Below, piece after piece: positions 1 to 10,246 of a stretch of DNA of 64,000 nucleotides (within the stretch, counting starts at the first letter, position 1; each line of letters begins with the position of its first letter). The stretch spans positions 1 through 64,000 of IMG/VR virus record IMGVR_UViG_3300028840_003067. One strand, written 5' to 3'. Under the pieces are notes generated by a model. That model made no database searches and was not told the origin of the DNA. It worked only from the letters and a program-made list of their open reading frames with translations. A program made the position numbers and the translations under genes. The DNA is from a virus.

Positions 1-67
1 GCCGATGCTAGAGGCCGATGCTAGGCCGATCGATGCTAGAGGCCGATGCTAGAGCCCGATGCTAGAG
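1..67. repeat. Degenerate 13-bp tandem repeat at the window start
   Basis: The unit GCCGATGCTAGAG occurs at 1-13 and 42-54, with shortened or altered copies at 14-24 and 25-41 and a one-base variant at 55-67. No ORF or RNA is explained by it. It could be part of a terminal repeat, a partition or packaging signal, or an assembly artefact at a contig end. Nothing else in the window resembles it closely. Confidence 0.75.
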
Positions 68-470
68 CACAATCTATGCCAGGGCATGTTTCGACCGCTA
101 CCACCTGGTAACAGGTTCGGGAAGGGGCCTAGAATTGAATATGAGGCACGCGAGGCCAAAAGAGGCCGCGGACTAGGGGTAGACTACAAAGTCTTCCCAT
201 ATTGGAAGCCAGGGGCCTTTACGGGGGGTTTCTACAGGTATGTCTGATGGGCTCACCTACCCGAAAGTAGGGTGGATCAAATTTGATTCACCGAGGATTT
301 CGGGAGGAGAATAGGGAGAACTCAACATAATCAACAACTTCTGTGTTTCACCAACAGGTGAATCAATTTTTGAAAATTGAAAATTTCCACACAATTTCAA
401 CATCTTCCAGCCGTAATTCAGGAGAACGAATATCCGAAAATCGACCCCCACCCCGTTCAGTTCAAATCGT

Positions 471-599
471 AGCTTATTAAATACCTGTAGAGCTATAACA
501 CGCATACATACATCCACGAGTCCATAGGATCATATACTATCTTATGGTCTAATGGTCTCGTGGATGTGATTTCTAGTATATATAAGTATTTAATAAGCT
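471..599. repeat. Nested palindromes (large cruciform-capable structure)
   Basis: The outer arms are a perfect 14-bp inverted repeat, AGCTTATTAAATAC (471-484) against GTATTTAATAAGCT (586-599). Inside lies a second perfect 10-bp repeat, CATCCACGAG (511-520) against CTCGTGGATG (557-566), which continues after one mismatch with CCAT/ATGG (522-525, 552-555). The outer arms are AT-rich. One 129-base hairpin or cruciform could form. A replication origin, a regulator site or an RNA structure are all possible. Confidence 0.7.
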
Positions 600-764
600 C
601 GATTGCTTGAAACAGGGGCCTTTTTCGCGGGGTTACGAGGTACCCTTGTATGAATTTATACACTCGTGGATCCCAGGAAAGATCATTCCTGGTGACTTTT
701 TTCACACACTGTGGCAATACGCCACACGAAACACGAGACACCGCCCATGTACTCGTGGATGTGA
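557..764. repeat. Three direct copies of CTCGTGGAT
   Basis: CTCGTGGATGTGA occurs identically at 557-569 and 752-764, and the shorter CTCGTGGAT at 663-671. The first copy is also one arm of the inner palindrome. Spacings are about 106 and 89 bases. The pattern resembles iterons or operator copies. Confidence 0.6.
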
Positions 765-808
765 CCTCTCCACGGGCAGACCTTCCCAGGATGTATCTCT
801 TCCTGGGA
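673..808. repeat. Two small hairpins with related arms
   Basis: CCAGGAA/TTCCTGG (673-679, 686-692; 6-base loop) and TCCCAGGA/TCCTGGGA (784-791, 801-808; 9-base loop) share the core CCAGGA. Neither is followed by a T-run, so neither looks like an intrinsic terminator. A third GC stem, GGGGG/CCCCC, lies at 927-946. They may be protein sites or RNA structures in a leader. Confidence 0.55.
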
Positions 809-978
809 CTGGTATCCCTCTTGCATCGGATCTCGTGTCTCGTGCCTGGTTGAGCCGGTGTGGGATCAAGATCACACTGTGCTGAAAAAACAACCACATC
901 TGAAGACTTTTGGAGACACGTGATGCGGGGGATTCAGAAAGCCCCCTGTAAAATCATATACATACACACTTTACCCCG

Positions 979-995
979 TTGGCACGTCGCTTGCT
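979..995 (+). promoter_or_regulatory. Sigma54-type promoter for the first early genes
   Basis: TTGGCACGTCGCTTGCT matches the known sigma54 consensus (TGGCACG, four bases, TTGCW) at every fixed position. The -24 GG is at 981-982 and the -12 GC at 993-994, which is the required spacing. A start near 1006 would leave a leader of about 17 bases holding the AAGGAGG ribosome site (1011-1017) before the ATG at 1023. A sigma70 reading (TATAGA at 998-1003) has no -35 at proper distance. Confidence 0.65.
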
Positions 996-1022
996 TGTAT
1001 AGATTCATACAAGGAGGGCACG

Positions 1023-1547
1023 ATGGAACAGGAAAAAGTCCATGTGTTTCAGACCGCGGGATTGGGGATGGCTCCGTTTCGGGTGACCGGATTCGGGGTG
1101 AAGCGGGGACCGTTGCCAATGGCGGACGGGAGCATGGTCGGAGCGCCTGGACAGCCGATGGGCACGTGCCAGTACTGCGGGACGGGCATTGCGAATTGTT
1201 TTGAAATCACGTCGTCGGATGGCCGGACGTTTGTCGTGGGCTCGGATTGTGTGGAGAAGACGGGTGACGCGGGGTTGCGTCGTCGGGTGAAGGCGGAGTT
1301 ATCCAAGGCGGCACGCGAGAGACGCGACGCGAGAAACGCGGCACGACGGGCGCAGCAGCGGGAGGAGAAGGCCGCGGTCGTGGCGGAGTTGCAGCAGGCG
1401 ATCGACGCGCACCGCGAGACGCTGCGGACCTGGCCCCATCCCGTCATTGCGGGGAAGTCATACCTCGACTATGTGGAGTTCGTGTTGCCCATGTGCGGCA
1501 TCATGAAGTTGCAGGAGTTAACCGACACGATCCGGAGGGGACGATGA
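1023..1547 (+). CDS. Zinc-motif early protein, unknown function
   Basis: This is the first convincing gene, 174 residues, with AAGGAGG six bases before its ATG. Residues 49-52 form CQYC followed by G, and a second cysteine lies in VGSDCVEKTG (residues 72-81), so a small metal-binding fold is likely. Residues 85-130 are very rich in Arg, Ala, Glu and Lys and read as a charged helix or coiled coil. No enzymatic motif is visible. It begins directly behind the sigma54-type promoter and its stop overlaps the next start (ATGA), so it probably heads an early operon. It resembles uncharacterised phage proteins only. Confidence 0.8.
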   Translation: MEQEKVHVFQTAGLGMAPFRVTGFGVKRGPLPMADGSMVGAPGQPMGTCQYCGTGIANCFEITSSDGRTFVVGSDCVEKTGDAGLRRRVKAELSKAARERRDARNAARRAQQREEKAAVVAELQQAIDAHRETLRTWPHPVIAGKSYLDYVEFVLPMCGIMKLQELTDTIRRGR

Positions 1548-1873
1548 ACACGCCGTATGCACAATTCACGCGCCACCGCTGCCCGATGCACGACGCGTCC
1601 TGCGCGGCACGCGTGGCCGATCTGGTGGCCTCGCGGTTCGTGCAGCCGTTCACCGCGGAGCAGGCGATGGCGTTGATCGAGCAGCAGGTGGGGCGGTATG
1701 TCCGCGGTCCGCACGCGGGACAGTTGCGGGGATGGGCGCACATCGAGGTCTGCGAGCGTGGGGGATGGGTGAAGGACGGTCCAGGCTATCATCGTGGCCA
1801 TGTCGAACGGCCAGGGCAGATTCGGTCGATTCACATCACGGATTTTACCGGTCGGGTGCTCTTCAGCGCCTAA
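1544..1873 (+). CDS. Small early protein, unknown
   Basis: It encodes 109 residues. I chose the ATG at 1544 over one 51 bases upstream because GGAGGGG stands just before it and because it gives the usual ATGA overlap with the previous stop. The sequence has a CPMHDASC motif near the N-terminus (residues 12-19) and no recognisable domain. The function is unknown; its place in the cluster suggests an early host-interaction role, which is inference. Confidence 0.7.
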   Translation: MNTPYAQFTRHRCPMHDASCAARVADLVASRFVQPFTAEQAMALIEQQVGRYVRGPHAGQLRGWAHIEVCERGGWVKDGPGYHRGHVERPGQIRSIHITDFTGRVLFSA

Positions 1874-1898
1874 CACGAGACACGGAGGTACGAGCGAG

Positions 1899-2084
1899 AT
1901 GCACTTTATGTTGGAAATCTTGAGTCGCAAGGATCGTGAGGGCAAGCAGCACTTTGCGCTGTTGTGGACGAACGCGCAGGGTGCACGACGCGCTCAACAT
2001 TTCCGAGCCGAGTTGCAGCCGCACGTAGATCGGCTGCACGCGGAGGGGCATACGATTCAACTCTCATTTACAGGGAAGGAATAA
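1899..2084 (+). CDS. Small early protein, unknown
   Basis: It encodes 61 residues starting MHFMLEIL. Longer in-frame starts upstream would overlap the previous gene by 80 bases, while ACGGAGGT (1882-1889) points to the ATG at 1899. The copy of ACGAGACA at 1875-1882 lies directly upstream. No known motif is present. Confidence 0.7.
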   Translation: MHFMLEILSRKDREGKQHFALLWTNAQGARRAQHFRAELQPHVDRLHAEGHTIQLSFTGKE

Positions 2085-2088
2085 GCGC

Positions 2089-2424
2089 ATGACACCGATC
2101 TTTGATCCCACGATGTTCACGGCGACGCAATGGTCGACGGCGAAGGACAAAGCGGAGTTTGCCACGTGGCTGATCCGGTTCATCGAGAAGGGCGCTCCGC
2201 TGAGTCTCTTTCACAAAGCCAAGTACAACCGGCTGAGCATGTGCTTCGGGCACATCGCGCACTACAACAAGTTCGGGTTTCACGATGAATGGTTTCAGAC
2301 GCCGGAGCAGGTCGCCGAGTGGGTCCGGTACATCACGTCGAGGCCGGTGTATGGCGATCCGGCGTGGACGTTCTCGGACGTGGAGCGGGTCGTGGTCGAG
2401 TATGCGCGTCAACATTGGGTCTAA
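2089..2424 (+). CDS. Small early protein, unknown
   Basis: It encodes 111 residues, with GGAAGGAA about eight bases before the ATG. It is rich in aromatic residues (many Phe, Trp and Tyr), mostly helical in appearance, and has no signal peptide or metal motif. It lies four bases after the previous stop and 27 before the next gene, in the same orientation. No family is recognised. Confidence 0.7.
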   Translation: MTPIFDPTMFTATQWSTAKDKAEFATWLIRFIEKGAPLSLFHKAKYNRLSMCFGHIAHYNKFGFHDEWFQTPEQVAEWVRYITSRPVYGDPAWTFSDVERVVVEYARQHWV

Positions 2425-2451
2425 TCAGTTCACCATGAAGGGAGTGACACC

Positions 2452-2859
2452 ATGTTTGCACCGTTAGAGATTACCATCACACACACCATTTTGGCGGAGC
2501 GCGTGGCTGACTTGTTGGTGGGCGCGTTCGAGGGCGGCAGTGACTATTGGATGGAACGCGTGGTGTTGGCGCGTCCCGACGAGGCGGAAGCCACCGAGCG
2601 GGTCTGGGAGGAGCGCGAGGAATTGGGCGGGTCGAATGCGTTCTACTCCGCGATCTTCACGCGCAGTGGCGGCGTGCGAATCTATACGGACGACGGCCAT
2701 GCCTACTCGTTGACGCGTGGCGCATTGGTCCGCGGGTTGGCAACGTTGGCGAAGGACTACGCGCACCATTTTCAGGATTTCGTCGAGGGCTCCGACGACG
2801 CGACGACATCTGATGTGTTTTTGCAGGTGTGTTTATTCGATGAAGTTCGCTATTCGTAA
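2452..2859 (+). CDS. Conserved phage and plasmid protein, unknown function
   Basis: It encodes 135 residues, with AAGGGAGTG before the ATG. The second half carries a pattern I recognise from a widespread family of uncharacterised phage proteins: an ARGL-like turn (here VRGLATLAKDY), then HHFQDFVEGSDDATTSDVF and a final LQxCLFxE. The family has no assigned activity. The acidic composition and lack of membrane segments suggest a soluble cytoplasmic protein. Confidence 0.75.
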   Translation: MFAPLEITITHTILAERVADLLVGAFEGGSDYWMERVVLARPDEAEATERVWEEREELGGSNAFYSAIFTRSGGVRIYTDDGHAYSLTRGALVRGLATLAKDYAHHFQDFVEGSDDATTSDVFLQVCLFDEVRYS

Positions 2860-2873
2860 AGGAGACACGAGTC

Positions 2874-3086
2874 ATGTACCACGAGAAACGCTATCGCCTG
2901 ATTCCAGTGCTCGACCGGCAGAAGCCGATGCGCGAGCAGACGATCTGTTATGAATACGGTCTGACGACGTATCAGGCCGTTCAACGCGTCAATGCGGGAC
3001 GGGCGCGACACTTTCTCTGGGACGTGTGGTATTGGGGCGATCCGGTCGAGGGCCTGTCACATGGGCAGTATCTTGGTGTGGTCTGA
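2874..3086 (+). CDS. Small early protein, unknown
   Basis: It encodes 70 residues, with AAAGGAGACACGAG just upstream of the ATG. It is mixed in charge, rich in Tyr and Trp, and has no recognisable motif. It is one of a run of short collinear genes with good ribosome sites. Confidence 0.65.
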   Translation: MYHEKRYRLIPVLDRQKPMREQTICYEYGLTTYQAVQRVNAGRARHFLWDVWYWGDPVEGLSHGQYLGVV

Positions 3087-3100
3087 CGAGGGAGGGGATG

Positions 3101-3676
3101 ATGGAGACGAGCGCGAACATACAGTTACCGGTCAAGGTGGGCGACGTGCTGTGGATGGCGAAGTTTCGCGCCTGCGCGAAGCAGCGTCGGTGTAGCATCT
3201 GCAAGGGGCGCAAGTCGGTGTGGGTCGTCAACGTCGAGGGGGAGGAATGGGAAGTGGCGTGCGAGTCCTGCGGGAAAGGGTTCGACGCGTCCCCAGGCGT
3301 GGAGACGTACTACGACGAGGCACCGGAGGCGGTACGCTTTGAGGTCGCGTCGATTCCACGTGTCACGGTTGAACCAGGCGGCGTGGTGATTGAATTGAGA
3401 TCGACGAGCGGGGACTACGCGACGTTCGCGTCGTTGTATGCCGATGAAGCCGCGGCATGGCTCACGTCCGTTCAGAACATGCGCCAGCGCGAGACGGAGA
3501 ACATGACGCACGACGCCAAGCGCAATCAGATTGTCGTCGAGAATCACGCGTGGTCCGTCCGCTACCATCAAGACCAGATCAAAGACGCGGAGCGACGGAT
3601 GGCATGGCATCGCGGGAAATTGCTGGACTATCAGACGAATCCACCGAAGCCGAGACGGAAGCGAGGCACGTCATGA
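3101..3676 (+). CDS. Zinc-ribbon protein with basic C-terminal tail
   Basis: It encodes 191 residues if translation starts at the ATG at 3101, which has GGAGG five bases upstream; the adjacent ATG at 3098 is too close to that site. Two CxxC pairs about 24 residues apart (RCSIC near residue 33 and CESC near 58) form a likely zinc ribbon. The C-terminus is a long charged helix ending in a Pro/Lys/Arg-rich tail, which suggests nucleic acid binding. The target is unknown. Confidence 0.7.
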   Translation: METSANIQLPVKVGDVLWMAKFRACAKQRRCSICKGRKSVWVVNVEGEEWEVACESCGKGFDASPGVETYYDEAPEAVRFEVASIPRVTVEPGGVVIELRSTSGDYATFASLYADEAAAWLTSVQNMRQRETENMTHDAKRNQIVVENHAWSVRYHQDQIKDAERRMAWHRGKLLDYQTNPPKPRRKRGTS

Positions 3677-3703
3677 CAGTTGTTGATTTGAAAGGAGCAT
3701 AAC

Positions 3704-4189
3704 ATGGGGAAGCATGAAGTGGGCATCTTCAGGGGCGTGTATAAGGACCATGAAATCAAGTGTACGATGAACGGGGGAGAGATCACGTTTTCGACGGAAG
3801 GGTTGACGGAGAAGACGCGTGTCGGCGAGTACCCGTTTCGATCACAGTACACGACCTATCAGGCGATCTGTGACGCACTGGATCGGATGGAACTGTCCGC
3901 ACGAAAAGATTTTAAGAACGGCGAGGCGTTCAGAGTGTTGGGACGGTACCAACGGTTGTCGGAGGTCGAGGCGGTCACCGTGACATCTCTACCGGACGAA
4001 CAGACGGCCTGGATCCGGACGGCGAACGGAGAGCGACAGAAGGTCTCACGGTCGTCTCTCTATGCGAGCCGAGCGGCCTGTAACGCGTACGTCAAGGCAT
4101 TGGCCCACGAGGAGCACCGGCATCGGAAGGTCTGTGAGGACTTACAGGTGGCATTGAATGGGTCGTTGTGGCAACCGAAGTCGGAGTAA
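3704..4189 (+). CDS. Early protein, unknown
   Basis: It encodes 161 residues, with GAAAGGAGC placed correctly before the ATG. It appears to be soluble, with beta-rich N- and C-terminal halves and a helical tail containing EEHRHRK. No family is recognised. It is the last gene before a 155-base gap that contains a promoter candidate. Confidence 0.7.
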   Translation: MGKHEVGIFRGVYKDHEIKCTMNGGEITFSTEGLTEKTRVGEYPFRSQYTTYQAICDALDRMELSARKDFKNGEAFRVLGRYQRLSEVEAVTVTSLPDEQTAWIRTANGERQKVSRSSLYASRAACNAYVKALAHEEHRHRKVCEDLQVALNGSLWQPKSE

Positions 4190-4298
4190 CACAGATGTTG
4201 GAGAAATGAGACGGTCCCTGTGTGAAAGACGACACACAGCACGAGACACGCAGTACGCCATGCGTCATGTTATCAAGGGGTTCGAGGGTCGTCGTCGG

Positions 4299-4314
4299 TG
4301 GTACGGGGTTTGCA
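4299..4314 (+). promoter_or_regulatory. Second sigma54-type promoter candidate
   Basis: TGGTACGGGGTTTGCA has the sigma54 elements TGGYAC and TTTGCA, with the -24 GG (4300-4301) and -12 GC (4312-4313) twelve bases apart as required. It lies in the 4190-4344 gap. A start near 4325 would give a leader of about 20 bases containing GGGAGG (4329-4334) before the ATG at 4345, the same geometry as the promoter at 979. A copy of ACGAGACA lies about 50 bases upstream (4241-4248). Confidence 0.5.
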
Positions 4315-4344
4315 TTCTCTTCAGGTATGGGAGGCGCGACGAGC

Positions 4345-4503
4345 ATGTGTGAACAGCAGTGTGGAAATTGTACGTGCGAGACACAGAACGAACCTGAGCG
4401 ATGGTTCGATACCGAGACACACACGGAGCATCAGAGCGCCCTGTGCGACCTGTGCCGGTTCGATGCAGTGCTCGGTGAGGAGTCCCTGCGGTACGTCAAC
4501 TAA
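4345..4503 (+). CDS. Cysteine-rich zinc micro-protein
   Basis: It encodes 52 residues with six cysteines: CEQQCGNCTC near the start and CDLC near the end. The spacing suggests a treble-clef or ribbon zinc site. I chose the ATG at 4345, supported by GGGAGG; the same frame stays open for 41 codons upstream, but that part reads like non-coding sequence and holds a promoter candidate. Such small zinc proteins in phages often act on host proteins, but nothing shows that here. Confidence 0.65.
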   Translation: MCEQQCGNCTCETQNEPERWFDTETHTEHQSALCDLCRFDAVLGEESLRYVN

Positions 4504-4523
4504 GACACGGAGGCAAGACGAAC

Positions 4524-4688
4524 ATGCACGAAGAACAATGCGATTGGTGCCGTAAGGGAACGAGTCAGGTGATCAAGCGAATGAAGCGCGTGTATATTGA
4601 CGACGAGGGCGAATGGGAGCCGGAGTACGTCTGCTTCGCGTGCCTCGATGCTGATGCCCGTATGAGGTCGTACGATGCCCGATGGTAA
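4524..4688 (+). CDS. Zinc micro-protein (CDWC ... CFAC)
   Basis: It encodes 54 residues, with CGGAGGC eleven bases before the ATG. CDWC (residues 6-9) and CFAC (37-40) form the paired knuckles of a zinc ribbon, with a basic stretch between them. It follows another zinc micro-protein by 20 bases and overlaps the next gene by 14. The function is unknown. Confidence 0.65.
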   Translation: MHEEQCDWCRKGTSQVIKRMKRVYIDDEGEWEPEYVCFACLDADARMRSYDARW

Positions 4689-4869
4689 TGAACTGACGCA
4701 CGTGTGGCAAGCGTGCCTGTATACCAAAGGGCATGTGACTCCGATGTGCGGTCGGATCTTCCGGACGTACGAGGGGTACAAGCGGTTCGCGGAGTCGTTC
4801 CCTGAAGAATCGAAACGAGTGTTAGGTGTGGTCGCCATCACGTATCAATGTTTGCGTATTGAAGATTAG
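4675..4869 (+). CDS. Small early protein, unknown
   Basis: It encodes 64 residues in a frame overlapping the end of the previous gene by 14 bases. It has two cysteines, no clear ribosome site and no recognised motif. It is kept because it fills the gap and its composition matches its neighbours. Confidence 0.5.
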   Translation: MPDGNELTHVWQACLYTKGHVTPMCGRIFRTYEGYKRFAESFPEESKRVLGVVAITYQCLRIED

Positions 4870-4880
4870 GGGGTGAACCG

Positions 4881-5069
4881 ATGTCACTATCTGAACCACG
4901 CATTGTTCGAATCGGCGAGACGCATTACGTGTGGCTGTGTGGATTTCATCGGGAGAGTTATACCGAGTGTGAGAGTTTCGCGGAGGCGGTGGCGCTCAAG
5001 CGGAGGATCCGGAGAGATCCGGCCTACGCGGAGCAGGGCATACATGGATTCGAGGCCGGTATAGCTTAG
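4881..5069 (+). CDS. Small early protein ending inside a tRNA gene
   Basis: It encodes 62 residues, with AGGGGGTG before the ATG. The middle (CESFAEAVALKRRIRR) looks like a helix of the kind seen in small DUF proteins. Its last 15 bases, including the TAG stop, lie inside the tRNA-Thr gene that starts at 5055. The function is unknown. Confidence 0.6.
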   Translation: MSLSEPRIVRIGETHYVWLCGFHRESYTECESFAEAVALKRRIRRDPAYAEQGIHGFEAGIA

Positions 5070-5130
5070 TGTTCAAAGCTCTCGCCTTGTAAGCGAGTGA
5101 TCGGGGGTTGAAATCCCTCTACCGGCTCCA
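5055..5130 (+). tRNA. tRNA-Thr (UGU)
   Basis: The 76 bases fold as a complete cloverleaf. The acceptor stem is GCCGGTA/TACCGGC, the anticodon stem CTCGC/GCGAG with loop CTTGTAA (anticodon TGT, reading ACA), and the T-arm GGGGG-TTGAAAT-CCCTC. The CCA end (5128-5130) is encoded. A phage tRNA for a codon rare in the host would speed late translation, which is the usual explanation. Confidence 0.93.
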
Positions 5131-5145
5131 ATAATAGGTGTAACG

Positions 5146-5346
5146 ATGTTTAATCACTGTGTGGTCAAATTGACGGGGAAGACCAAGAAGGGGAAGGAAC
5201 GCGTCAAGCAGTTCGGCACGCTCTGGACGATTGAGACGCGGGTCGATCCGACCGGACAAGGCCGATGGTGTGTCGTCTGTCCACCGAGTATGCGATGGGT
5301 CCATCCGACACACGATGCAGATTTCGATGTGGAGTTGCTACCGTAG
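5146..5346 (+). CDS. Small early protein, unknown
   Basis: It encodes 66 residues and starts 15 bases after the tRNA. It is basic at the N-terminus (KLTGKTKKGKERVK) and beta-rich, with a CVVCPPS segment. No family is recognised. Confidence 0.65.
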   Translation: MFNHCVVKLTGKTKKGKERVKQFGTLWTIETRVDPTGQGRWCVVCPPSMRWVHPTHDADFDVELLP

Positions 5347-5374
5347 TGCACAGTTCTCACGAAAGGGGATGGAG

Positions 5375-5566
5375 ATGCGAGCACGTGAATTGAAGGCGCA
5401 CTTGAACACACTGGCGGAGGCAGAGCTAGATCGAGATGTCGTGATCGAGGGGTGTGATTGCTGCGGGGAGGCGTTGGACGTAAAGCTGGAAGACTGGCCG
5501 TGGAGAAAGGAGAGCGAGAAGAATCCGGAGGTTCTGTTTATCACACGCGATATGAGTCAATGGTAG
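5375..5566 (+). CDS. Small phage protein with GCDC motif
   Basis: It encodes 63 residues. The ATG at 5375 stands seven bases after AAGGGG, better placed than the ATG at 5369. The layout (a short helix, then VVIEGCDCCGEALDVKLE) matches a common type of small phage protein in which a helix precedes EGCDCxGE. No activity is known for these. Confidence 0.65.
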   Translation: MRARELKAHLNTLAEAELDRDVVIEGCDCCGEALDVKLEDWPWRKESEKNPEVLFITRDMSQW

Positions 5567-5599
5567 TCAGTGTATATCTTAACCACGAGGGAGGCGATG

Positions 5600-6106
5600 A
5601 TGGGCACGAAAGCGCAAATTGGATTTCACGAGACCTTGGCTGACCGACCGGTGGCCATTCTTACACAGCATAACGACGGGCATCCGACCGGTAAGTCCGG
5701 CGTGATGTCGGAGTTGATGGAAATTTGTCCGTCGTTGCTCAAGCGGTACGGGTTTTACGAACCGGCGTATCTTGCGGCTCGAACGCTCGTCATGCTCGCG
5801 TTGCGGTTGGATGAACGCAAAGAGGATCCTCACAATGTATGGGGCTACACGGTAGGCGCTGAGCTTCGTGATGCGACGCGGTTTTACTACGCGGTGACGA
5901 AAGAGGGCGTACACGTGTACGACGCACGAGGGATGGTCGATGAGGATCTGGGGAAGTTGGAAGATATCGAGGAAATGTTTTTCACGGCCTGGGTCAACGA
6001 CGACGAGCGGCGTGAATTGGAGAAAGAAATCGCAACAACCGATGCGTCACTGAAGGCGATGAAGCTTCGCCTTGAAAGCCTCAAGCGGAATGGAGCGTTA
6101 GTCTAA
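5600..6106 (+). CDS. Conserved phage protein (MGTKAQI family)
   Basis: It encodes 168 residues. The ATG at 5600 follows GGGAGG by six bases. The opening MGTKAQIGF, then a strand and a conserved HxDGxPTG turn, is typical of a widely distributed phage family without assigned function. The C-terminus is a long charged helix (residues 130-165). It is soluble, and its stop overlaps the next start (TAATG). Confidence 0.75.
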   Translation: MGTKAQIGFHETLADRPVAILTQHNDGHPTGKSGVMSELMEICPSLLKRYGFYEPAYLAARTLVMLALRLDERKEDPHNVWGYTVGAELRDATRFYYAVTKEGVHVYDARGMVDEDLGKLEDIEEMFFTAWVNDDERRELEKEIATTDASLKAMKLRLESLKRNGALV

Positions 6107-6306
6107 TGCGTCGGTCGGATCCACGTCACTATACCTGGGGGGTGAAGATCCGGAGCATCGACAAAGTTCTGATGTATAACATGACACGAGAAGAGGCGGA
6201 GGCAGTCGCGGGACAGGTTGAGGGCCTGTCCGCGGTGCCGATCGACAAGAAACGCTGTTCACCGAATCGACGACAGCATGAAGAAGGGCATGGGATTCAG
6301 ATATGA
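6106..6306 (+). CDS. Small early protein, unknown
   Basis: It encodes 66 residues and starts by TAATG overlap with the gene before; it ends by overlap with the next ATG at 6303. A central helix (TREEAEAVAGQVEG) suggests a small alpha-beta fold. It is basic at both ends. No family is recognised. Confidence 0.6.
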   Translation: MRRSDPRHYTWGVKIRSIDKVLMYNMTREEAEAVAGQVEGLSAVPIDKKRCSPNRRQHEEGHGIQI

Positions 6307-6539
6307 TGGGCATCGCGCTCAGTATCAATGATAAGCTGTTAGCATTTTACGAGGTCCGTCGTGTCGAGCCGGTGGATCGACTACCGGCACCGACGACCCT
6401 CTGTACGTACCGTGTCTTTGACGACGAGGGAAACGAGGCGTTGCCTGAACCGATTCAACATCGGTATGGATGGGGAGCGGAGTCACTGGCGTATCGAGTC
6501 CTCGGAAAACTGAAGAGGGCGCATGGTCAGCGTTCGTGA
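6303..6539 (+). CDS. Small early protein, unknown
   Basis: It encodes 78 residues, mixed alpha and beta, with no cysteine pair or membrane segment. It is coupled to its upstream neighbour by a four-base overlap. No recognised family. Confidence 0.6.
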   Translation: MMGIALSINDKLLAFYEVRRVEPVDRLPAPTTLCTYRVFDDEGNEALPEPIQHRYGWGAESLAYRVLGKLKRAHGQRS

Positions 6540-6759
6540 AGCAGTGGCACATATGTTGCAGCTTTGTGATTATGTGACAGATGCCACGACGCTGTCCGAT
6601 ATCACAGTGCTCAAACAGAAGGCGCAGCAGGTTCGCCGGTTGTTAACCGAGGGGGACGACAATGGTGTACATGTGGACGGTCAAAATTCTCAAGGAGACG
6701 GGCATACCGGACAGAGCACAATACAACGTCGCGGCACGAACAGCAAAAGAGGCAATTAA
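6523..6759 (+). CDS. Small protein of doubtful extent
   Basis: It encodes 78 residues. The first 45 (an amphipathic helix pair) look like protein. The remainder, from GVHVDG on, is rich in Gly, Gln, Asn and Ser and overlaps the next, more convincing gene by 98 bases. Either the overlap is real or a frameshift removed an earlier stop. Confidence 0.4.
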   Translation: MVSVREAVAHMLQLCDYVTDATTLSDITVLKQKAQQVRRLLTEGDDNGVHVDGQNSQGDGHTGQSTIQRRGTNSKRGN

Positions 6760-6853
6760 CAAGGCGGTTCGACAGGCGCAGTGCGATATCGGCTATAAGC
6801 GACCGTATGTCTGTGTGTTTCTCGAACGTAGCGATACGTTCGTGGTGGTGTAG
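6662..6853 (+). CDS. Small early protein ending inside a tRNA gene
   Basis: It encodes 63 residues, with GAGGGGG before the ATG. It is mixed alpha-beta with a helix of the type AARTAKEAINKAVRQ, as in small phage proteins that modify amino-acid flow or bind nucleic acid; no function can be assigned. Its TAG stop (6851-6853) overlaps the first two bases of the tRNA gene. Confidence 0.65.
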   Translation: MVYMWTVKILKETGIPDRAQYNVAARTAKEAINKAVRQAQCDIGYKRPYVCVFLERSDTFVVV

Positions 6854-6926
6854 CGGGGTAGATCAAAGGTAGATTACCGGCCTCATAAGTCGGATGGTGA
6901 AGGTTCAAGTCCTTCCCCCGCTACCA
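6852..6926 (+). tRNA. tRNA with CAU anticodon, initiator-like
   Basis: The 75 bases fold as a full cloverleaf. The acceptor stem is AGCGGGG/CCCCGCT, the D-arm GATC-AAAGGTA-GATT, the anticodon stem CCGGC/GTCGG with loop CTCATAA, and the T-arm GAAGG-TTCAAGT-CCTTC. CCA is encoded. It resembles bacterial tRNA-fMet: the GCGGGGTAGA start, an A11:U24 pair (known as an initiator trait) and a weak A1:U72 pair. It lacks the full run of three G:C pairs in the anticodon stem. Alternatives are elongator Met or, with lysidine, Ile. Confidence 0.9.
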
Positions 6927-6955
6927 TTTTCATGTCTGGGGTTGAGTGGCACTAA

Positions 6956-7114
6956 ATGAGATCCGAGCCGACATTCTGTCCGATGTGCCATCGGAGGGCG
7001 TTTGAATGGGAGGGAAATTTTGGATGGTGTATGCTGTGTAGTTATAGTTGCACGAGATCGGACGGCGACGATCTGTCGGACGATGAAACAGGTCCGGAGG
7101 CGGTCAACGTATGA
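6956..7114 (+). CDS. Zinc micro-protein (CPMC ... CMLC)
   Basis: It encodes 52 residues. CPMC (8-11) and CMLC (25-28) with FEWEGNFGW between them form a compact zinc ribbon; the tail is acidic. The ribosome site is weak. The stop overlaps the start of the endonuclease gene (ATGA at 7111), so the two are probably translated together. Confidence 0.6.
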   Translation: MRSEPTFCPMCHRRAFEWEGNFGWCMLCSYSCTRSDGDDLSDDETGPEAVNV

Positions 7115-7476
7115 TGCCGACCGCTGAGTACATTGCAGGTTTCTTCGACGGCGAAGGATTAGTCGGCCTTTACTATGCCAAGCGCGACTCGCGGTGGTGT
7201 CCGGAGGTCGCTATCACACAGAAGTCCGATAGTCGGACCATGTTATTGATGCGACGGATTGCCGAGAGGTATCATGCGAAAGTCAAGTACGTGAATGGTG
7301 GGTATCTCGCGCTCAGTATCCGACGGAAAGATCGTGTCAGAGAATTTATTCGTGATGTGTTGCCGTTCTGTACGGTGAAGCATACACAGTTACTCGTGCT
7401 CGATGCGTGGTTGGAGACCGGCACGTACTCATACCGTACGGCTCAATTGTTAAAGACCTTAAAACGGAGGGCATGA
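7111..7476 (+). CDS. LAGLIDADG homing endonuclease, single motif
   Basis: It encodes 121 residues. The N-terminal motif YIAGFFDGEG (residues 7-16) is the LAGLIDADG helix with the acidic residue needed for cleavage. The strands after it (VAITQKS, LALSIRRKDRV) fit the DNA-binding sheet. One motif means it should act as a homodimer and cut a long, partly symmetric DNA site. It is free-standing, not inside an intron or intein that I can see, and lies among small genes just after a tRNA, a common place for such elements. Its own target is not evident. Confidence 0.85.
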   Translation: MMPTAEYIAGFFDGEGLVGLYYAKRDSRWCPEVAITQKSDSRTMLLMRRIAERYHAKVKYVNGGYLALSIRRKDRVREFIRDVLPFCTVKHTQLLVLDAWLETGTYSYRTAQLLKTLKRRA

Positions 7477-7637
7477 TGCGTCAAGGTACGAGGGAGCAGT
7501 TTCAGACCTGGTTAGCAGGGCGTGGGTTGACGCTGACGAAGTACAATCAACTCACCCCAGAGGCGAAGCGAGCGATCTATCAACAATATCAGAAGCGAGG
7601 CACGAAAGATGAAACCTTGGATTCACGCGGAAAATAG
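7476..7637 (+). CDS. Small helical protein, unknown
   Basis: It encodes 53 residues. CGGAGG stands five bases before the ATG at 7476; the ATG at 7473 is also possible. The sequence (FQTWLAGRGLTLTKYNQL, then EAKRAIYQQYQK) is a helical pair resembling short phage proteins of unknown role. Confidence 0.6.
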   Translation: MRQGTREQFQTWLAGRGLTLTKYNQLTPEAKRAIYQQYQKRGTKDETLDSRGK

Positions 7638-8040
7638 TGCGAAAAAGTGGGGCGGAAGTCCTGAAGACTATCTGCATATCCATGATTGGTTCGATCAAAC
7701 GAAGGCGCACTTCCCCGATATGCGGCATCGCGCCATTCTACATTCGAGCTTCGGGATCTTCCTTTGCGAATCTCAGTTTGGTACGTTCATCACGAATGAG
7801 TCCGGCAAGGCGGTCCAGGTGCGAGACATTGCAGAGCACCACGTGATCGAAGACCTGGGTTTCATTCCGACGATACAGGATTATCTAAAAGACATGCCGT
7901 TCTACGCATGGCTTGGTGGTAGGCCGAAGGTGAAACGGAAGATCAAGATCGAGGATCTTGATGACGTGGTATTCGACGGAGGGCGACCGGCACCCTTGCC
8001 TCCATCACAGCCATTTGATACGACGAAGATCGTCGATTAG
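7609..8040 (+). CDS. DUF6915-like conserved phage protein
   Basis: It encodes 143 residues. The pattern WIHAENSAKKWGGSPEDY, then HDWFDQTKAHFPDMRHRA, then VRDIAEHHVIEDLG with IPTIQDYL matches the family I know as DUF6915, frequent in phages and bacterial islands. The conserved His and Asp residues hint at a metal site, but no activity is established. The C-terminal 35 residues, basic then Pro-rich, extend past the conserved core. It overlaps the previous gene by 29 bases. Confidence 0.8.
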   Translation: MKPWIHAENSAKKWGGSPEDYLHIHDWFDQTKAHFPDMRHRAILHSSFGIFLCESQFGTFITNESGKAVQVRDIAEHHVIEDLGFIPTIQDYLKDMPFYAWLGGRPKVKRKIKIEDLDDVVFDGGRPAPLPPSQPFDTTKIVD

Positions 8041-8049
8041 GGAGGGGAT

Positions 8050-8322
8050 ATGTGGAAGGCGAATGTTCACGCTCCGATGTTTCTCATTCAAGAAATTGAC
8101 TGGCAGTACAACGACGAAATTTTCTATCGCTCGGATAACGGGCAGGGAGGTATTCCGAAGGTCATCTATACGACACAAGACGCGGCATACGCTGAGTGCA
8201 AGCGGTTGAACGCGGAACAATTAAAGAGGAACCCTGACATGCCGTGTGGGTACGAGCATGACGGAACGTACCCGACCGTGAAAGAATTTTACGAAGTGGT
8301 TGAAGTGGAACTTGGAGGGTAA
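8050..8322 (+). CDS. Early protein, unknown
   Basis: It encodes 90 residues, with GGGAGGGG before the ATG. A hydrophobic first strand, a central Tyr-rich part and the FYEVVEVEL ending suggest a small alpha-beta protein. No known family. Confidence 0.65.
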   Translation: MWKANVHAPMFLIQEIDWQYNDEIFYRSDNGQGGIPKVIYTTQDAAYAECKRLNAEQLKRNPDMPCGYEHDGTYPTVKEFYEVVEVELGG

Positions 8323-8323
8323 C

Positions 8324-8752
8324 ATGATACCGAACGAGATCACCGAGTTTTTGAGCAAGAAGAGAGAGTTAGACCAACACGTGCAAGCGATTGGGAAAAA
8401 TTCACTGCGCGAATTGTTCAACACGTTGTTCGAGTCCGACGAGCAGATGACGAATATTCGATGGACACAATACACGCCACACTTCAATGACGGGGAGCCG
8501 TGTGTGTTTCGGATCAATACGATCACGGTTAAGATGGACGGGAACGATGAAGACGGGGACAATGCCGACGGGTACCTGGACGCCTACGATCTGGGTCGTC
8601 TCGGTAAACCCGCGGTCGAGGCTGCGCTCGAATCGTTGCAAGCGACGGCCTCTGAACTTGAACATGTGTTTCAGACGGTGTTTGGGGACGATGCCGAAGT
8701 GACGGTTTGGAGGAATGGCGAAATCGAGGTTGATTGCGTCGAGCACGATTAA
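8324..8752 (+). CDS. Conserved phage protein (IRWTQYTPxFNDG)
   Basis: It encodes 142 residues. The ATG at 8324 follows GGAGGG by five bases. The motif IRWTQYTPHFNDGEPC and the acidic middle (GNDEDGDNADG) identify a family found in many large phages. It carries no assigned function. It closes the first early unit; a large inverted repeat follows 11 bases later. Confidence 0.75.
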   Translation: MIPNEITEFLSKKRELDQHVQAIGKNSLRELFNTLFESDEQMTNIRWTQYTPHFNDGEPCVFRINTITVKMDGNDEDGDNADGYLDAYDLGRLGKPAVEAALESLQATASELEHVFQTVFGDDAEVTVWRNGEIEVDCVEHD

Positions 8753-8763
8753 AATACCTCACA

Positions 8764-8821
8764 TGTCTCGTTTTTCCCACAACGCTGTGTCCGGAATGGC
8801 ACATGTGGGAAAAACGAGACA
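8764..8821. repeat. Perfect 18-bp inverted repeat
   Basis: TGTCTCGTTTTTCCCACA (8764-8781) is matched exactly by its reverse complement at 8804-8821, around a 22-base middle. A further TGTG/CACA pair (8786-8789, 8800-8803) could extend the stem with a bulge. It lies between the end of the first early unit and the promoter at 8853. It may act as a terminator-like hairpin or, since each arm holds TGTCTCGT, as a pair of regulator sites. Confidence 0.85.
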
Positions 8822-8852
8822 CGTAATATCAAGCACTTATACTTTTTAAGCG

Positions 8853-8868
8853 GGGCATCCCGTTTGCA
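8853..8868 (+). promoter_or_regulatory. Sigma54-type promoter for the replication unit
   Basis: GGGCATCCCGTTTGCA has a -24 GG (8854-8855) and a -12 GC (8866-8867) twelve bases apart, with GGCAT and TTTGCA around them; it differs from the sigma54 consensus at two weaker positions. A start near 8879 gives a leader of about 35 bases with CGGAGG before the ATG at 8914. No sigma70 -35 is positioned for the TAGAAT at 8872. Confidence 0.55.
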
Positions 8869-8913
8869 TTGTAGAATGGTATCAGTGACATTCACCAATC
8901 AAACGGAGGGTTT

Positions 8914-9804
8914 ATGAATACACCAAGAGTCCCGATGCAAAGTGTGTTGGCGTATCAAGAGCGGTATGGGATTGCGTCTCAGATGGACGCGTTGAAGTCC
9001 CTCGCGCCTTCAGTGTTTACAACCGATTCCTCGCCGAAGGTTTCGGCGAAGTATCAACACGTGAACACCATCGACATTATCAACCATATGTTGCTGAAGG
9101 GCTGGAACTTGGATCAAGTCGGAGAGACACGCGTTACACAGAAGACCCGTGAACGTGGTCTTGCTCCGTACGTGCAGCACGCGGTCACGCTCCGGCATCC
9201 GGAGTTCAAATTGGGGAAACTCAAGAAAGATGATGTGACTCCGAACATCATGCTCGGTGGCTCACATAACACGTCGTCCGTCGTGTGGATGATGGGTGGC
9301 ATCTATCGGTGTTGGTGTGACAATCAGGCCCTCGTATCCATCGGAGATTTATTCTATTCGAAACATCGTCACATCGGGAGCTTCCAGGTCTTGATGGATG
9401 GGATCTATCGGTCCTTGGACAACATGGTCGCGCAAGTGGATAAGATCGGGGAGCCGATCCAGAAGTGGCAGAGCCTCACCCTGACGGTCGAGCAGCGGTA
9501 CGAGTACTTCCGACGCGTGATCGAACTTCGTCCGGAGAGCAAAGCGAAGACATTGGCGAAAGAGAACTTCGAGTCGTTCGACTATCGGAGACGCGGAGCG
9601 GATCTTTCCAATGATTTGTTCACGGTGTACCAGGTCGTGCAAGAGCATACGATGCGTGGTCTCCGTGTTCCGATCCTTGTCAATGGTCAGAGTGCGGAGC
9701 GTTCGCTGACGAGGCCGGTTTCCGGAGTCAATACGTTCGTCGATTTGAATCGGGCGCTGTGGTCGGTGACAGATCGGTTCGCGGACGAATTGGTCAATGG
9801 CTAA
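8914..9804 (+). CDS. DUF932 family protein
   Basis: It encodes 296 residues, with ACGGAGGG before the ATG. The patterns IMLGGSHNTSS, then YRCWCDNQALV, then the long helical middle and the C-terminal VNTFVDLNRALWSVTDRFA match the DUF932 (plasmid/phage TIGR03299-like) family. The biochemical role of the family is not settled; members often sit near replication or recombination genes, as here. It is the first gene of the second unit, so it is likely made early and in quantity. Confidence 0.85.
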   Translation: MNTPRVPMQSVLAYQERYGIASQMDALKSLAPSVFTTDSSPKVSAKYQHVNTIDIINHMLLKGWNLDQVGETRVTQKTRERGLAPYVQHAVTLRHPEFKLGKLKKDDVTPNIMLGGSHNTSSVVWMMGGIYRCWCDNQALVSIGDLFYSKHRHIGSFQVLMDGIYRSLDNMVAQVDKIGEPIQKWQSLTLTVEQRYEYFRRVIELRPESKAKTLAKENFESFDYRRRGADLSNDLFTVYQVVQEHTMRGLRVPILVNGQSAERSLTRPVSGVNTFVDLNRALWSVTDRFADELVNG

Positions 9805-10246
9805 GCGCGAACGATCAAAGGCGGGAGAGGAGAACGATGTGGGCTCCTCTCCCACGGGGAGGTCTTGCTATGTCTGTGGCAAGCCGATCAAGAGAAACGA
9901 TCTAGGTTTCTTCCCCGTCTCGCACATAATGTGCAAACCAGGCACGAGCAAGTGGCTCGCATGGTTCGACGAACTTCCGGCATCGAAGCAGACGGAATGT
10001 GGAAGGCTGATTGCCGATCATGCACGAATTAAGTTGGTGGAGACACGTAAACGATTCGAGGAGTGGCGAAAACGAAAGGCGGACGAACGTGAACGCATTT
10101 ACGACGGCCCTGTTGGAGAAGGCAGCGGAAGAGGAAGCGGGGATCTATCGCCCGTACTACCAAGGTCTGCGCGGTCTCGAAGTCGAGTATCGAAAGGTCT
10201 TCGAAAATCAACTCGCGCTGTTTCAAGACAACGAAGAGCCTCTTGA
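9797..10246 (+). CDS. Zinc-knuckle protein with basic tail
   Basis: It encodes 149 residues and starts inside the end of the DUF932 gene (ATGGCTAA). CYVCGKPI (residues 25-32) and HIMC nearby form a possible zinc site. The last 50 residues, rich in Gly, Ser and Arg, overlap the next gene by 158 bases and look less like a folded protein. The true end may be affected by an indel; otherwise this is a long overlap. Confidence 0.5.
   Translation: MAKRERSKAGEENDVGSSPTGRSCYVCGKPIKRNDLGFFPVSHIMCKPGTSKWLAWFDELPASKQTECGRLIADHARIKLVETRKRFEEWRKRKADERERIYDGPVGEGSGRGSGDLSPVLPRSARSRSRVSKGLRKSTRAVSRQRRAS

Follow-up and report, generated by a model that had tools for sequence, protein, structure and literature searches.

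Three sites in the early region of this viral genome, named here s1, s2 and s3, are quite probably promoters for the host RpoN (sigma54) RNA polymerase. This reading is carried by the sites themselves, their exact spacing, their conservation, the accompanying IHF boxes and the lack of a phage-encoded activator or RpoN in the sequence, and from it we infer the occupancy, start sites, timing and activator choice of s1-s3. Descriptions of early transcription in phages usually invoke sigma70 or a phage polymerase, and sigma54 polymerase is unable to start without an activated ATPase. If the reading is true, the early genes would be conditional on the signalling state of the host, which would amount to simple host sensing.

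In the mechanism that we propose, the sigma54 holoenzyme would form a closed complex on the -24/-12 elements, and host IHF would bend the DNA just upstream, a step for which s3 offers the best evidence. A host AAA+ enhancer-binding protein, active during infection, would then melt the promoter, and transcription would begin roughly 12 nt downstream of the -12 GC, with a short leader.

Genome and gene layout

The window analysed here is a stretch of 64,000 bases, namely bases 1-64000 of a viral record of 67,785 bases. The terminal 144 bases of the record duplicate bases 2-145, and because of this terminal repeat the 67.8-kb genome is considered essentially complete. It is that of a tailed phage, in which the + strand half encodes ThyX, an SNF2 helicase, a primase, UvrD, a family A DNA polymerase and a class II RNR, and the - strand half encodes the portal, major head protein and terminase. 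From this gene content we call the two halves early and late, respectively. Megablast of the first 12 kb against isolated phages returned no match, and the closest isolated-phage terminases show about 46% identity. Searches with the DUF932 protein, whose gene lies downstream of s3, matched nothing beyond this family and a single remote relative.

Sigma54-type sites in front of early genes

The first-pass annotation had proposed three sigma54-type promoters in the only real gaps of the early region, each with a ribosome site and a start codon close behind. All three sites are real and were recovered at 979-995, 4298-4314 and 8852-8868, and for the first 10 kb it is broadly correct that these are the only real gaps. 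The annotation overlooked a weak site at 809-825 and, beyond the window, the sites at contig 65288-65406. The features concerned are the following:

809..825, + strand: weaker sigma54-like site CTGGTATCCCTCTTGCA, score 12.5, in the leader upstream of s1; uncertain
979..995, + strand: s1, sigma54-type -24/-12 site TTGGCACGTCGCTTGCT, ahead of the first early gene, which starts at 1023; full consensus TGGCACG-N4-TTGCW
1023..1547, + strand: first early gene, an ORF of 174 aa; no Pfam match, weak match to phrog_2319
4298..4314, + strand: s2, sigma54-type site GTGGTACGGGGTTTGCA, close to the consensus
4345..4503, + strand: 52-aa gene downstream of s2, from direct reading of the sequence
8763..8822, + strand: RNA hairpin or long inverted repeat between the preceding gene and s3; -37.3 kcal/mol, z -6.8
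8852..8868, + strand: s3, sigma54-type site GGGGCATCCCGTTTGCA, before the DUF932 gene; weaker
8914..9804, + strand: DUF932 gene downstream of s3 (PF06067, E 1.2e-19)
contig 65288, 65373 and 65390, + strand: three clustered sites CTGGCACCGGTTTTGCA, GTGGCACGTTTCTTGCT and AAGGCACCGATATTGCA, beyond the window, noncoding

In s1-s3, the invariant GG and GC are separated by ten bases, as in sigma54 promoters. The perfect match to the consensus claimed for s1 holds, and this site is the top-scoring one of the genome with the weight matrix. The start codons at 1023, 4345 and 8914 lie 28, 31 and 46 bases after the -12 GC of s1, s2 and s3; if transcription starts about 12 nt beyond the GC, the leaders would measure ~17, 20 and 35 nt, with a ribosome site in each. 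Against the promoter reading, s3 deviates from the consensus at -26, where the T is missing, and at -21 (GG/GC being intact), and s1 is devoid of a good IHF box.

Excess of sites over shuffled sequences

Over the whole genome, the pattern GG[CT]A[CT]N5TTGC[AT] gave 10 matches, all on the + strand, against an expected mean of 0.74 (200 dinucleotide shuffles, maximum 4). Seven of them, including the three clustered beyond the window, fall in four noncoding stretches, where 0.0225 are expected and none of 2000 shuffles reached 7; it should be noted that one of these stretches, beyond the window, was included after its sites had been seen. A whole-genome matrix scan against shuffles, as suggested in the first-pass annotation, revealed 6 sites scoring ≥15, all on the + strand, versus 0.49 in shuffles. 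This matrix was hand-made from the published consensus and not from a published table, and the pattern counts are independent of it.

Two of the sites scoring ≥15, at 6544 and 12405, lie inside genes, the latter within a hydrophobic, signal-peptide-like coding stretch. They are probably coding coincidences and were left out of the parts of the proposed system. As some of the strong matches fall in coding sequence, one match by itself carries little weight, and these two would suit a reading in which all the sites are chance matches in a GC-mixed genome. Such a reading is nevertheless extremely improbable in view of the excess of the 10 matches over expectation, on a single strand, and of their conservation in related phages. 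Sigma70-like pairs in 1-10000 showed no excess (6 found versus 6.0 in shuffles), and sigma70-like promoters sought in the gaps were at chance level.

Corresponding sites in related phages

Terminase searches provided three relatives with a terminase identity of 74-82%, namely G001 (14.4 kb), G002 (64.1 kb) and G052 (52.6 kb). G002 possesses sites in the three corresponding gaps: TTGGCACCGTCATTGCA at 848, before the first early gene, is the counterpart of s1; CTGGCACCCTGTTTGCA at 4098, in the corresponding mid-operon gap, is that of s2; and GGGCATCTGGTTTGCA at 10184 precedes the DUF932 gene and is orthologous to the s3 promoter. In G052, GGCATTTCCCTTGCT is found before the orthologous DUF932 gene. 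These corresponding sites are embedded in otherwise poorly conserved DNA. No counterpart in the relatives was shown for the 809..825 site, and distant terminase relatives (45-51%) contain just 0.2 sites per 10 kb.

The hairpin upstream of s3 has an equivalent at the matching place in G002 (-26.7, z -5.2), with a different sequence. It may mark the end of the preceding unit or be a binding site.

IHF boxes upstream of the sites

An IHF box just upstream, between enhancer and promoter, is a usual layout of sigma54 promoters, common but not universal, and a comparable placement, with IHF at about -42, is described for the D. vulgaris orp promoters (PMC3897727). The exact consensus WATCAAN4TTR occurs in only two copies in the 67.8-kb genome, both strands counted. 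The boxes in front of s1-s3 are as follows:

952..964, + strand: poor IHF-like box AATCATATACATA, two mismatches to the consensus, 29 bp before the s1 GG; weak
4271..4283, + strand: IHF-like box TATCAAGGGGTTC, one mismatch, 29 bp before the s2 GG
8827..8839, + strand: exact IHF consensus TATCAAGCACTTA, 27 bp upstream of the s3 GG

A similar placement was observed in the relatives. Of the five exact copies in G002, one precedes its s1 counterpart by 19 bp and another its s3 counterpart by 28 bp, and its s2 counterpart has a one-mismatch box at 28 bp. G052 has two exact copies, one of which, reversed in orientation, precedes the DUF932 promoter by 31 bp. Overall, of the 7 promoters considered in the three related phages, 4 carry an exact box at a distance of 19-31 bp ahead of the -24 element, and two more a box with one mismatch. 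Both orientations occur, and the chance of at least 4 exact boxes out of 7 is ~1e-9, a figure that holds as an order of magnitude only, because the promoter set was picked after looking. Together with the excess over shuffles and the conserved places in relatives, these adjacent IHF sites lend good support to the assignment of s1-s3 as sigma54-type promoters. That sigma54 may also be the main driver of the early genes, as proposed in the same annotation, is suggested by gene order.

Search for an activator, RpoN and enhancers

Neither PF00158 (sigma54 activator) nor PF04552 (RpoN) was found in the whole genome, so that the lack of an activator reported earlier for the genes of the window holds for the complete phage. 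PF00158 was also not found in the relatives and the array-bearing contigs searched. Given that the phage encodes neither protein, both host RpoN and a host activator would be needed if the promoters work. No shared enhancer motif was found upstream of the sites, which counts against the promoter reading and leaves the first-pass idea that infection is tied to the nitrogen or stress state of the host without support here; dyads are present upstream of most of them, with sequences differing from site to site. The pair CGTGTCTCG/CACGAGACAC, considered as a shared enhancer, was rejected: it lies near several sites but is present elsewhere too.

Site clusters between divergent units

The cluster at contig 65288-65406 sits between the divergent late and early units, where it would represent the same element multiplied. 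In the relatives, the noncoding region beside the terminase genes contains four tandem sites (G001), about eight sites spaced as closely as 16-17 bp together with - strand sites (G002), or a convergent, nearly abutting pair (G052). In the relatives, the - strand sites could act for the late unit. The clusters contain tightly overlapping sites, and simultaneous promoter use of all of them is impossible, which is a further point against the promoter reading.

The surroundings of the cluster are rich in TACGTA palindromes, 15 of the genome's 21 being gathered in 460 bp at contig 65337-65797 (L001 5337-5797), partly within a 29-bp repeat AAAACTACGTAGAG... At the same place in G001 (L002, minus strand), nine TACGTA are found in ~330 bp around its array. 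This stretch could be an enhancer, an operator or an origin.

The motif might also be the operator or iteron of another protein, such as a replication initiator, that resembles the sigma54 consensus, the clusters then being an origin. The cluster is indeed located where the GC skew changes sign, near the switch of gene direction, and beside the TACGTA repeats of 29-bp period, and the tandem 16-17-bp steps of G002 look like iterons. This explanation leaves aside the positioning of s1-s3, which is that of promoters, and it fits poorly with the arrays described below.

Arrays of sites in unrelated viral contigs

We searched viral contigs for arrays in which three sites are separated from one another by 1-30 bases. 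At least 79 new loci were obtained, nearly all of which are noncoding arrays of non-identical sites, and after the addition of six seen otherwise, at least 56 non-redundant array loci are available, with a GC content of 31-64%. The sampled array contigs differ in their tailed-phage terminases, portals and polymerases. When one extra spacer base was imposed, the whole collection yielded 21 loci, essentially all identical-unit repeats, indicating that the change in spacing abolishes the phage arrays. In 257 Gb of bacterial genomes, almost all of the at least 80 matching loci consist of repeated identical units, for the most part within reading frames. Three bacterial-genome loci among the matches listed (L070, L078 and L106) resemble phage arrays; the genome bins holding them encode RpoN, and the contigs may be wrongly binned.

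Among the 186 distinct array sites of the matches listed, -26 is T in 98%, -27 is C/T in 88%, -20 is a purine in 100% and -11 is A/T in 95%. In this comparison, the search had fixed only GGCAY and TTGC; the array sites thus reproduce the consensus at positions that the search left free, which supports the sigma54 promoter reading. Sigma54 recognition is most likely the property of the array sites. An operator or iteron is, by comparison, quite an unlikely explanation, as unrelated phages share the consensus in its details over the whole range of GC content, no extra spacer base is tolerated, and the three bacterial bins with array contigs all encode RpoN.

Tandem spacings in the matches listed fall mainly at 17, 25-29 or 36-43 bp, the range 19-24 being empty, and the starts of the convergent pairs listed are 16-20 bp apart. 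The periodicity p-values of these spacings were left unused, because one peak dominates the test. Since convergent sites face each other closely, not all array sites would be used as promoters. In L012 (5640-6460 of the 147.5-kb contig IMGVR_UViG_3300049489_000321), more than 20 sigma54-like elements are readable on both strands in ~1 kb of noncoding DNA; this region also contains CCATGG palindromes.

An array may act as a promoter cluster, as a sigma54 sponge or in polymerase loading. Extended to all the elements, and to the clusters above all, the second possibility would mean that sigma54 or its holoenzyme is bound without productive transcription, as an RpoN sponge or a poised polymerase. 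The presence of arrays in many phages, their use of both strands, their preferred spacings and the crowding in L012 agree with this, and the closeness of convergent starts is hard to fit with every site being a working promoter. Nevertheless, s1-s3 lie directly before genes, with ribosome sites and IHF boxes, and are kept in relatives, none of which a sponge requires, and we consider this explanation unlikely for them. Moreover, we propose, tentatively and with doubt slightly outweighing confidence, that dense sigma54 arrays with preferred spacings could be a widespread regulatory device of unrelated tailed phages, almost absent from bacterial chromosomes, for seizing or titrating host sigma54 polymerase during infection.

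Comparison with known sigma54 systems

The use of sigma54 by phages, said in the first-pass annotation to be rarely described, is presented in the literature as rare but not unprecedented, with reference to YuA (PMC5053324). The same paper states that YuA development strictly depends on host sigma54. The record of YuA, a Pseudomonas aeruginosa phage (Yuavirus), annotates three promoters with the -24/-12 consensus. Use of host sigma54 is thus documented in YuA and predicted here, and the present phage would work like YuA with a different layout. The YuA promoters lie in the particle/lysis (late) region and depart from the strict consensus, whereas here near-perfect sites precede early genes, a cluster lies between divergent units, and the arrangement in the particle/lysis region is not seen. 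The two phages are not closely related.

So far, phage sigma54 use appears to be documented essentially in YuA. A literature search that excluded most subscription journals returned no paper on sigma54 arrays in phages, which is weak evidence of novelty. The arrays in unrelated phages suggest that RpoN may be a regular phage target and not a peculiarity of YuA, and they make the idea testable with cultured phages. When arrays were sought by similarity among isolated phages, the matches were all weak (E about 1) and came from 114-kb Vibrio phages. One of these, Vibrio phage D419 (OZ195672), carries four strict sites among small genes in a 4-kb stretch towards one end (L312 39193-43142), and it offers a cultured system in which the sigma54 idea could be tested.

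In the Desulfovibrio orp operons, the same -24/-12 elements are found with an IHF box just upstream (PMC3897727); the orp operons differ in having an identified enhancer and activator. The phage shock response (PspF/psp) is a host sigma54 system tied to phage and membrane stress. It drives host genes, unlike s1-s3, which stand before phage genes, and PspF would be a conceivable activator for the phage sites.

Other features of the genome

Several minor features were observed. A weak LAGLIDADG homing-endonuclease match, under the Pfam cut-off, was found at 7111-7476. At contig 65882-67431 (L001), an AT-rich block of small + strand genes, the last of which encodes a GP88-family protein, differs in composition from the remaining genome. 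Repeats of 13 bp, GATGCTAGAG(G/C)CC, are present at 1-78 and at contig 67520-67710, where the ends of the circular genome meet, and they may have interfered with assembly. Finally, the noncoding leader contains a hairpin, ACATCCACGAG...CTCGTGGATGT, with extra copies of CTCGTGGATG (507-570 and 744-770), and a similar structure, ACATCCATGAG...CTCATGGATGT, is found at the left end of G002.
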